The position numbers and the translations under genes were made by a program. DNA of 17,647 nt from a bacterium (GTDB lineage: Bacteria; Blakebacterota; Blakebacteria; Blakebacterales; Blakebacteraceae): positions 1-17,647 of the forward strand of contig JALGVQ010000117.1 in the NCBI GenBank assembly GCA_025774615.1. Reading direction: 5' to 3'. Numbering within the stretch: position 1 is the stretch's first letter; the number at the start of each line of letters is the position of its first letter. The notes beneath the pieces are model-generated. The model did no database searches, was not told where the DNA came from, and saw only the letters and a program-made list of their open reading frames with translations. This document shows, piece after piece, positions 5,925-17,646 of this stretch.

Positions 5925-7184
<1,260 letters not shown>

Positions 7185-7253: not shown

Positions 7254-8437
7254 TCACACCGCCTTTTCGGCGGCGGACTTGAGATCATCAAGAAGGAAGG
7301 GCTGCTCCCAGGTAAATTCCGGGAGCTCCCTGCCGAAGTGACCGTAAGCGGCGGTTTTCCGGTATATGGGCCTGCGGAGATCGAGCAGATCTATCATCGC
7401 CCCGGGAGTCAGGGGGAATACTTCCCTGACCAGATCAGAGAGTCTGTCATCAGACATTGTCCCCGTCCCGAAGGTATTGGCCAGGACACTCACCGGTTCC
7501 GCGACACCGATCGCGTATGCCAGCTGGATCTCGACTTCATCGGCCAAGTCAGCCAGGACGATGTGCTTTGCGATCGCCCGGGCCATGTATGAGGCCGAAC
7601 GGTCCACCTTTGTCGGGTCCTTGCCGGAGAAGGCGCCGCCCCCATGGCTGCCGTGGCCTCCGTAGGTGTCAACGATGATCTTGCGTCCCGTGAGCCCGGT
7701 GTCCGCGTGTGGGCCACCCTTCACGAACCGCCCCGTCGGGTTCACCAGGAACCGGGTATTCTCATCCATCAGGTCTGCCGGCATGACCGCCTGTACCACG
7801 TGCTCCATGAGGTCATCCCTGATCGTCTGCTGGTCCACACCATCCTCATGCTGGGCAGAAAGGAGTATCGTGTCGATCCGGACCGGTTTTCCCTCCACGA
7901 ACTCGATCGAAACCTGTGATTTTCCGTCCGGACGCAGGTAGCTGATCACATCATTCTTGCGTACCGCTGCCAGCTGTTCGGCGAGCCGGTGGGCAAAGAC
8001 GATCGGCATCGGCATAAGCACATCGGTCTGCCTGCAGGCGAATCCGAACATGATGCCCTGGTCTCCCGCACCATCCCGATCCACGCCCATGGCGATATCA
8101 GACGATTGCTGGTGGATCGTTGTCAGTACCGCGCACGTTTCGAAGGAGAAGCCCATTTTAGCGCTCGTGTACCCGATATCCCTGATTGTCTCTCTGACGA
8201 CTTCGGGTACTTCGACGTACCCCGCACAGGTAACCTCACCACCCACCAGTGCCATGCCGGTCGTCAAAAAGGTCTCGACTGCCACCCGGGAGAGTGGATC
8301 CTCCCTGAGCATGGCATCGCCACCCGGGAGAGTGGATCCTCCCTGAGCATGGCATCGAGAACGGCGTCGGATATCTGATCGGCCATCTTGTCAGGGTGGC
8401 CCTCGGTGACCGATTCACTTGTAAATATGTAACGCAT
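7254..8437 (-). pseudogene. metK: S-adenosylmethionine synthetase, frame broken by a 38-bp duplication
   Basis: MetK makes S-adenosylmethionine from methionine and ATP in the cytosol. The start at 8437 encodes the canonical N-terminus [17 protein letters not shown], with the catalytic HPDK. This frame is lost after the 38-bp tandem repeat at 8281-8357 and stops at a TGA (8264-8266) after 57 codons. The rest, from 7254 up through an internal ATG at 8312, is intact in another frame. In repaired numbering it carries GAGDQG (110-115) and [18 protein letters not shown] (252-269). With one repeat copy removed the protein is a normal 381 residues. Translation from 8312 alone would lack HPDK and could not give an active enzyme. 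The gene lies 44 bp after pfkB, with AGGAGA upstream. Since metK is nearly always essential, this may be a sequence or assembly error, a minority allele, or a case with a second metK elsewhere. Confidence 0.93.
8281..8357. repeat. Perfect 38-bp tandem duplication inside metK
   Basis: Two identical 38-bp units lie head to tail at 8281-8318 and 8319-8356; the identity runs one base further, to 8357. Each unit encodes the metK segment around [13 protein letters not shown]. The length is not a multiple of three, so the second copy shifts the frame. The only homology at the junction is one base, and no other repeat of this sequence is seen in the window. Confidence 0.97.
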
Positions 8438-8481: not shown

Positions 8482-9405
8482 TCAGAACACCGACCCGTCA
8501 CTGTCAATATGTATCATTCTCTCGAAATGTCCCGCCCTCATTGTGATATCTTCCCGCGTTATGGAAAGAAGCCGGCCGAGACTGAAGTCTTCAACGTTAT
8601 ACGATGCAAGGACACTGCCCACCATGAGCCCCCGTCGCAGGTCTTCCGTCTGGTGTCCATCACTGGCGGCCAGATAGCCGAAGAGCCCGCCGGCGAACGT
8701 GTCACCGGCGCCGGTTGGATCGATCACTTCCTCGAGTGGGAAGGCGGGTATGAAGAATATCTCCCCCCGGTGCCAGAGCACGGCTCCATACTCACCCCGC
8801 TTGACCACGATGTACTCCGGCCCCAGTTCCTCTATCACCCTGACGGCGCGGAAAATGTTCGATTCCCCTGAGAATTCGAGCGCTTCCGCTTCATTTATCA
8901 TCACACAATCGACCCGCCGGAACACCTCTTCGAGCAGACTTCGCTCCCCCTCGATCCAGTAATTCATGGTGTCGGCACCGGTAAAGGCATCCCCGGATGT
9001 CTGCTCCAGGACCTTCAATTGCAGTGCCGGGTGAAGATTGGCAAGAAACACATAGGGGCTATCTTTATAGGAATCAGGCAGTTCGGGGTCGAAGGTCTCA
9101 AACACGTTTAATTGGGTATCGAGTGTCACAGCCTGGTTGAGGTCATCCACGTAACGGCCCGACCACCGGAAGGTACGCCCGGGTACCCGCTGCAGCCCCT
9201 CCAGGTCAATCCCCCGTCCCCGGAGCGTTTCCAGGTGATCCTCGGGAAAATCCTCTCCCACAACCGCTACAACCCGCACCCCGGTAAGAAGGGATGCCGC
9301 TGTTGAGAAGTAGGTCGCGGAACCACCAAGCGCATCTTCAACGCTGCCGAATGGAGTTTCGACACTGTCGAGCGCGACTGAGCCTATTACCAGGAGTTCC
9401 GCCAC
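8482..9405 (-). CDS. PfkB-family (ribokinase-like) kinase
   Basis: This is a cytosolic ATP-dependent kinase of a sugar or nucleoside. The 307 residues show the N-terminal PfkB pattern with LGGSATYFS (26-34), a lid region rich in aromatic and polar residues (TFRWSGRYVDD, 78-88), and the C-terminal signature DPTGAGDTFAGG (229-240). Asp235 of that signature is the catalytic base. The start is GTG at 9405, two bases after the stop of the nucleotidyltransferase gene, with GAGGAG overlapping that gene's end 5 nt upstream. The substrate is not clear. Its place between sugar genes and the SAM-cycle genes fits either a hexose-phosphate or sugar kinase, or an adenosine kinase that would remove the adenosine made by AhcY. 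The second idea is inference from context only. Confidence 0.9.
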   Translation of the reverse strand: MAELLVIGSVALDSVETPFGSVEDALGGSATYFSTAASLLTGVRVVAVVGEDFPEDHLETLRGRGIDLEGLQRVPGRTFRWSGRYVDDLNQAVTLDTQLNVFETFDPELPDSYKDSPYVFLANLHPALQLKVLEQTSGDAFTGADTMNYWIEGERSLLEEVFRRVDCVMINEAEALEFSGESNIFRAVRVIEELGPEYIVVKRGEYGAVLWHRGEIFFIPAFPLEEVIDPTGAGDTFAGGLFGYLAASDGHQTEDLRRGLMVGSVLASYNVEDFSLGRLLSITREDITMRAGHFERMIHIDSDGSVF

Positions 9406-15776: not shown

Positions 15777-17492
15777 TCACCTTCCGTCCCAGGAGACATC
15801 CTCCAGGTGTTCTTCATCTATCGTCACATCCCGTGCCTTGGTACCGTCGGGCGGACCGACAACTCCCAGCATCTCAAGCTGGTCCATGATCCGGGCCGCA
15901 CGCGTGTAGCCGACTCCCAGTCTCCGCTGTATGAGACTGATTGAGCCCTGTTTGTTGGTCACCACGATCCAGGCGGCATCCCGCAGGAGTTCGTCCATTG
16001 AATTACCAGCCGCACCCATACCGCCCGGGTCGCCACCAGCGGGAGCGAATATGTTCACCTCCTCACCTTCAAACTCCTGACCGCTGGCGAGGTTCGCCAG
16101 TGCTTCGATCTCTTCATTCGATATATAGGAACCGTGGATTCTGAGCGCCTCGGGAAGAACGGGATTCATAAAGAGCATATCCCCCTGTCCCAGAAGCTTT
16201 TCCGCCCCATTCGCATCAAGGATTGTGCGGGAATCGATCTTCGATGGAACCTGGAACGCGATACGTGTCGAGAAGTTGGCCTTGATCGGTCCGGTGATAA
16301 CATCAACGGAGGGGCGCTGAGTGGCAAGAATCAGGTGTATGCCTACGGCCCTGGCTTTCTGGGCGAGTCGCTGGATAAGAGTTTCAATATCGGCCGACGC
16401 GGTAAGCATCAGATCAGCGAGCTCATCCACAACCACGATGATATAGGGAAGATGTTCGGCAATCTCCCCGCTGTCATCTATCTCGGCCGTGTCATCATCC
16501 CTCTTTTCCTGTTCCTCCCTCATCTTCGCCAATTTGGCATTGTACTGCAGAATGTCGCGGACCATCGCCGCAGCCAGCTTGTCATATCGCCGTTCCATCT
16601 CCAGGACGGCCCAGCGCAGGGCGTCGAGCGCCTTTTTCGGATTCGTGACAACCGGTGTGATCAGGTGGGGGATCGTGTTATAGATCGCCAGCTCGAGCAT
16701 CTTCGGATCTACCATGATGAACCGGCACTCCTCCGGACCCATACGAAGGAGGATGCTCGCTATGATGGCGTTGATACTCACACTCTTGCCTGAACCGGTA
16801 GTCCCGGCCAGAAGCAGGTGGGGCATGCCAGCCAGGTCGGCAACGAAGGGCGTTCCACCGATATCCATGCCGAGGGCCATGGGTATCTTTAGTTTCGGAT
16901 CCGCCCATGCCTCCGATTCGAGTATTTCGCGGAGACGAACGATCCGTGGAGTGTGATTCGGGATCTCCACACCGACCGCGGCCTTGCCCGGAATCGGCGC
17001 TACGATCCGGATCCGCTTTGCCCGCATCGCGAGAGCGAGGTCGTCAGCCAGATTCACGATCTGGTTCACCTTGACACCGGGAGCCGGTTCAATCTCGAAG
17101 CGGGTGACGATCGGGCCGGTCTGCCAGCCGTTCACCTCGGCCTTGACTCCGAAGGAGAGCAGTTTCTCCTGCAGGAGTGTTGCTTCCTTTCTGATCTCTT
17201 CCTCGTCGGGACCCCGCTCATCCGCAGCGGGCAGGGAAAAAATTTCCAGTGACGGCAGGTCGGATGTCCCGTCTCCGGGTGACGAACCGGTCGAGGTACC
17301 GGCCTTCCGCTTCCCCGAAGGCCTGCTTCGAACCGGTTTGACTTCGATGAGTCCTGCTTCATCAGGTACATCTTCCACCACGTCCGGCACCGGAGCAGGA
17401 ACAGGGTCGGGCAACGGAGTGAATCCTGTCCCGAGTGGCGATGGCGGTTTCCGCGGCCCCGGCTGCATCCCGGGCTTCGTCCCCTGCTGCAT
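15777..17492 (-). CDS. ftsK: DNA translocase FtsK/SpoIIIE, motor and gamma domains
   Basis: FtsK pumps DNA through the division septum and helps resolve chromosome dimers. This frame covers a Pro-rich linker (1-90), then the alpha domain (LQEKLLSFGVKAEV...TGPIVTRFEIEPAPGVKV, about 107-142). The RecA-like motor has Walker A GTTGSGKS (230-237), Walker B IIVVVDELADLM (351-362) and LATQRPSVDVITGPIKAN. The C-terminal gamma winged helix (about 497-571, QGSISLIQRRLGVGYTRAARIMDQLE) reads KOPS-type DNA signals. No membrane segment is present in this frame, which is open only from 17510 because of a TGA at 17511-17513. The expected N-terminal part is probably in another frame just upstream (see 17362-17646). 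The ATG at 17492 lies inside a 12-bp repeat and has no convincing ribosome site, so it is probably not the real start. lolA follows after 33 bp. Confidence 0.93.
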   Translation of the reverse strand: MQQGTKPGMQPGPRKPPSPLGTGFTPLPDPVPAPVPDVVEDVPDEAGLIEVKPVRSRPSGKRKAGTSTGSSPGDGTSDLPSLEIFSLPAADERGPDEEEIRKEATLLQEKLLSFGVKAEVNGWQTGPIVTRFEIEPAPGVKVNQIVNLADDLALAMRAKRIRIVAPIPGKAAVGVEIPNHTPRIVRLREILESEAWADPKLKIPMALGMDIGGTPFVADLAGMPHLLLAGTTGSGKSVSINAIIASILLRMGPEECRFIMVDPKMLELAIYNTIPHLITPVVTNPKKALDALRWAVLEMERRYDKLAAAMVRDILQYNAKLAKMREEQEKRDDDTAEIDDSGEIAEHLPYIIVVVDELADLMLTASADIETLIQRLAQKARAVGIHLILATQRPSVDVITGPIKANFSTRIAFQVPSKIDSRTILDANGAEKLLGQGDMLFMNPVLPEALRIHGSYISNEEIEALANLASGQEFEGEEVNIFAPAGGDPGGMGAAGNSMDELLRDAAWIVVTNKQGSISLIQRRLGVGYTRAARIMDQLEMLGVVGPPDGTKARDVTIDEEHLEDVSWDGR

Positions 17493-17646
17493 CCCCGGCT
17501 GTGTCCCCGGTCACGGTACCTTTTGTCTTCTTTGCACTCCGCCTGCTGCTGATCGATGATCCAACCGACCGGATACCCGATACAATCGCTGTGAACACCT
17601 TGCCCACTGTCCCTGAGATGGATGCCGCCCCGCTCCCGGTCGTGCG
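17362..17646 (-). CDS. Probable FtsK N-terminal linker in a different frame (partial)
   Basis: The frame is open from the window edge to a TGA at 17362-17364. Its first part (GTVGKVFTAIVSGIRSVGSSIS, then SSRRSAKKTK) looks like an amphipathic and basic segment just after membrane helices, as expected between the FtsK membrane domain and its linker. It then becomes four-residue repeats of the type GDxA and ends in a Cys- and Arg-rich stretch that looks non-coding. The real protein probably changes to the frame of the motor domain somewhere between 17364 and 17510, where both frames are open. A one-base extra, or two missing bases, would explain it. It could instead be a separate small frame of no meaning. 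Confidence 0.4.
   Translation of the reverse strand, partial: RTTGSGAASISGTVGKVFTAIVSGIRSVGSSISSRRSAKKTKGTVTGDTAGDAAGDEARDAAGAAETAIATRDRIHSVARPCSCSGAGRGGRCT
17451..17510 (-). repeat. 12-bp minisatellite in the ftsK linker
   Basis: Five imperfect units follow each other on the minus strand: CCGGGGACACAG, CCGGGGATGCAG, CAGGGGACGAAG, CCCGGGATGCAG and CCGGGGCCGCGG. In the motor-domain frame they encode PGTQ, PGMQ, QGTK, PGMQ, PGPR, which fits the Pro-rich linker that follows. In the upstream frame they encode GDTA, GDAA, GDEA, RDAA, GAAE. Repeats and G runs of this kind are prone to slippage and to sequencing error. Confidence 0.8.

Follow-up and report, generated by a model that had tools for sequence, protein, structure and literature searches.

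The locus raises the question of whether metK, a gene essential in most bacteria, has truly been broken by a short tandem duplication or only appears broken as assembled. The window analysed was the whole of contig C170 (17,647 nucleotides), part of a 3.30-Mb draft metagenome genome that comprises 324 contigs and is 82% complete. Within it, the 38-bp unit GCCACCCGGGAGAGTGGATCCTCCCTGAGCATGGCATC at 8281-8318 is followed side by side by an identical second copy at 8319-8356. The match continues for 1 bp to 8357, giving a periodic run of 8281-8357 and a maximal repeat of 39 bp, with 1 bp common to both copies. For any single site, a perfect adjacent match of this length greatly exceeds what chance would give. 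A dispersed repeat or mobile element was rejected as the source of the unit, as it occurs only twice in the whole draft genome. At 17453-17510, the window also holds an imperfect 12/24-bp repeat in the proline-rich N-terminal part of an FtsK-like gene.

On the minus strand, metK starts with an ATG at 8437, passes out of frame beyond the duplication and is read for 57 amino acids up to a stop at 8264-8266 (5′ fragment, 8264-8437). The remainder is open in a different frame at 7254-8312 on the same strand, encoding 352 amino acids from an internal ATG within a stop-to-stop frame of 7257-8390. Both halves are matched by the TIGR01034 profile, the 5′ fragment over profile positions 1-38 (nucleotides 8315-8428) and the main fragment over positions 25-376. 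The latter scored 501 bits, above the curated cut-off of 309, and carries the Pfam S-AdoMet_synt N, M and C domains. As assembled, the GHPDK motif sits in the 57-aa fragment, out of frame with the rest of MetK. Following in silico removal of one 38-bp copy, the motif came into frame and a stop-free metK of 381 amino acids was obtained. No further lesion was found in metK besides the duplication. The original prediction had stated that an exact 38-bp tandem duplication knocks metK out of frame, that the start and the rest of the gene are both intact in different frames, and that removing one copy restores an uninterrupted 381-residue enzyme; on these points it was confirmed.

The neighbourhood is undamaged. 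An intact ahcY (5925-7169, minus strand; Pfam AdoHcyase and AdoHcyase_NAD), encoding S-adenosylhomocysteine hydrolase, adjoins metK on the same strand, and its product acts at the next step of the SAM cycle. Upstream of metK lies an intact gene for a PfkB-family kinase (8482-9405, minus strand; Pfam PF00294). A comparison of related genomes at the site had also been proposed. The duplication falls within residues 20-55, a segment free of indels and stops at all 109 related metK loci, and a conserved insertion in relatives was rejected on this count (0/109). In the same-family genome G002, metK is intact and shares 73% identity across residues 1-379.

Perfect duplications were then surveyed in a sample of the same draft genome, consisting of 97 stretches including the analysed contig (0.88 Mb of readable sequence, as a few of the short contigs were masked). 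This sampled 0.88 Mb contained seven perfect two-copy tandem duplications, with units of 25, 32, 38, 38, 40, 45 and 72 bp. The duplication is thus not special to metK and recurs across the draft genome, at six further, unrelated sites with junctions of the same kind. Two of these, of 45 bp (L130:257-346) and 72 bp (L189:9447-9590), keep the frame; those of 40 bp (L179:500-579) and 32 bp (L194:8690-8753) are intergenic or sit at the beginning of a gene. The remaining two split genes: the 25-bp duplication at L187:1492-1543 interrupts a PadR-family regulator, and the second 38-bp duplication, at L245:3965-4040, divides a PEMT/ICMT-like methyltransferase into two frames. In each of these two genes, removal of one copy gave a single continuous frame. 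The PadR frame is immediately preceded, in the region L187:1092-1404, by a long stretch of glycine-rich repeats (GRGGGGGQGGG...), which is also found in the same-genus genome G001.

Five of the seven duplications thus lie within genes and three of these five break the frame (metK, the PadR regulator and the PEMT/ICMT-like methyltransferase), which is near the two-thirds expected without selection, i.e. for blind placement. Homology beyond the unit at the seven junctions amounts to 0, 0, 0, 0, 0, 1 and 2 bp, a pattern that random ends would give and that differs from slippage between pre-existing repeats. At the PadR site, G001 has just one copy and its frame is intact. Its match to the L130 region does not span the duplication, and for the methyltransferase site in L245 none of three relatives gave a DNA match.

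For statistical comparison, tandem repeats of 80-98% identity were defined as diverged; the perfect ones of this genome have periods of 25-72 bp. Controls consisted of 0.77 Mb of mixed genome sequence, to which comparison genomes add 0.37 Mb. Perfect duplications numbered 7 per 0.88 Mb in this genome, versus 1 per 0.77 Mb in the controls and 2 per 0.37 Mb in the comparison genomes. The ratio of perfect to diverged repeats was 7:5 here, 1:12 in the controls and 3:22 in controls and comparison genomes together (Fisher p = 0.011 against the controls and 0.006 with the comparison genomes added, the metK site being counted). With the metK site, which had prompted the search, left out, the corresponding values were p = 0.023 and 0.012. 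When only their number is compared, the excess of perfect duplications is borderline or not significant with metK (p = 0.05 and 0.09) and not significant without it (p = 0.08 and 0.14). Since genuine duplications diverge after they arise, a genome is expected to contain repeats of varying identity; this is the case in the controls, while this genome holds mostly perfect repeats.

The ends of the sampled contigs bear on how such repeats could have been made. Eight pairs of contigs have identical ends, and six of the eight overlap by exactly 114 bp (L113/L122, L130/L176, L151/L173, L160/L191, L185/L260 and L190/L197), the others by 105 and 106 bp. Overlaps of 114 bp are characteristic of de Bruijn assembly at a k of about 115. 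All seven duplications (25-72 bp) are shorter than these end overlaps and so lie within the k-1 bound. A fixed 38-bp period was considered as the signature of a single k and rejected, since 38 bp occurs in only two of the seven and the lengths vary. Such genomes are commonly assembled by iterative k with IDBA-UD, with published largest k values of 100, 105 and 145. For one IDBA-UD assembly, scaffolding errors have been described in short regions of wrongly joined contigs, those left unrepaired being replaced by Ns (PMC5079060).

Where coverage is thin, neighbouring contigs may truly overlap by fewer than k-1 bases. At metK, two contigs or assembly-graph ends would have had a true overlap of 38-39 bp, below a k of about 115. 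Paired reads would have placed them adjacent, and their ends might then have been joined without the overlap being collapsed, in which case it would appear twice, perfectly. Because the repeat is perfect, the one-copy frame is intact, similar junctions recur elsewhere in the genome and contig ends overlap by a fixed 114 bp, the metK duplication is, judged from this pattern, most probably a false join in the draft assembly. The absence of any other lesion in metK, the intact ahcY, the 109 related loci lacking an indel and the single copy at the PadR site in G001 all agree with this. Against it stand the two duplications of seven that are intergenic or at a gene start together with the two that are in frame, a distribution that true duplications under selection could also give. 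Further points against are the count-only excess, which loses significance without metK, and the single N run in the readable sampled contigs (11 Ns, in L149). Most likely, the metK of this organism is an ordinary, single-copy, intact gene for a 381-aa SAM synthetase beside ahcY. Of the meanings listed in the original prediction, assembly error is therefore favoured; an on/off switch or uptake of SAM lost ground, since six other sites carry such duplications.

The strongest of the alternatives, itself unlikely, is a genuine tandem duplication of recent origin that is carried by some or all of the sampled population and keeps metK off until slippage or recombination between the copies reverts it. 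It has the right form, with perfect copies, a shifted frame and a gene restored by one copy, and a broken essential gene would be tolerable only if the variant were transient. It has to contend, however, with the six other perfect duplications, which lie at unrelated places in both genes and intergenic DNA, with the lack of junction microhomology, with the scarcity of partly diverged copies, which a lineage steadily making duplications should also show, and with the essential role of metK in most bacteria when no other copy was found. Short tandem duplications that cause phase variation within open reading frames are on record, as cited in PMC4022640 (Waite 2001, 2003). A broader version would have the organism making short perfect tandem duplications genome-wide at a high rate, in essential genes as well, with part of the population transiently off before reverting. 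This is distinctly improbable.

Less probable still is that metK has begun to decay, with a second metK or the uptake of SAM making up for it. The original prediction had named a second metK elsewhere as one possible meaning. None of the bacterial type was found in the 324-contig draft genome, which at 82% completeness could be missing one, and no archaeal-type MAT (SAM synthetase) was found in four genomes, this one included. The same-genus genome G001 likewise gave no metK match in its draft. There, however, contig C432 ends at its last base inside the upstream kinase and contig C37 begins at base 1 inside ahcY. As the contigs of G001 thus break on both sides of metK, the absence of metK there is a gap, and it was rejected as support for a true loss. 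The intact ahcY and the otherwise lesion-free metK also speak against decay. Finally, translational bypass or frameshifting across the repeat, restoring MetK from the two-copy message, would find identical takeoff and landing sequences by construction but is extremely improbable, as the insert is absent from all 109 related loci, similar repeats also lie between genes, and a special RNA fold was rejected (z = -1.5, with 15 of 200 shuffles as good).

The observation of a duplicated, frame-shifted metK is thus confirmed, and its striking reading as a loss of metK is probably an assembly artefact. If the duplication is such an artefact, which is likely, it warns that intact genes may seem disrupted in this draft genome and in any produced likewise. 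Draft genomes could then be screened cheaply by looking for too many perfect, undiverged two-copy repeats of a length below k. Were the duplication real, an essential enzyme would have been lost reversibly, which would be unusual. Read mapping should come before any report that this lineage lacks metK.

Among known systems, the gene product resembles bacterial MetK (TIGR01034) in having all three Pfam domains, the GHPDK motif and an ahcY neighbour, and differs in that, as assembled, it is split in two frames by the duplication. Duplications that disrupt an open reading frame and are reversible in principle have also been described, in the accounts cited, for pneumococcal capsule genes (type 3 capsule locus, cap8E and tts; Waite 2001, 2003). 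In those accounts they were seen as phase variation and in dispensable genes. The present duplication, in contrast, lies in an essential gene, has counterparts with the same junctions at unrelated sites and is known from one assembled state. Nor are the sites restricted to contingency genes, as phase variation would have it; they comprise an essential enzyme, a PadR gene, a methyltransferase and intergenic DNA. There is also a likeness to false tandem duplication from uncollapsed contig overlap, a scaffolding error of short-read metagenome assembly. Although the joining step itself is inferred here, the perfect copies, the lengths below k-1, the random frame, the genome-wide scatter and the fixed 114-bp end overlaps are all shared with it.
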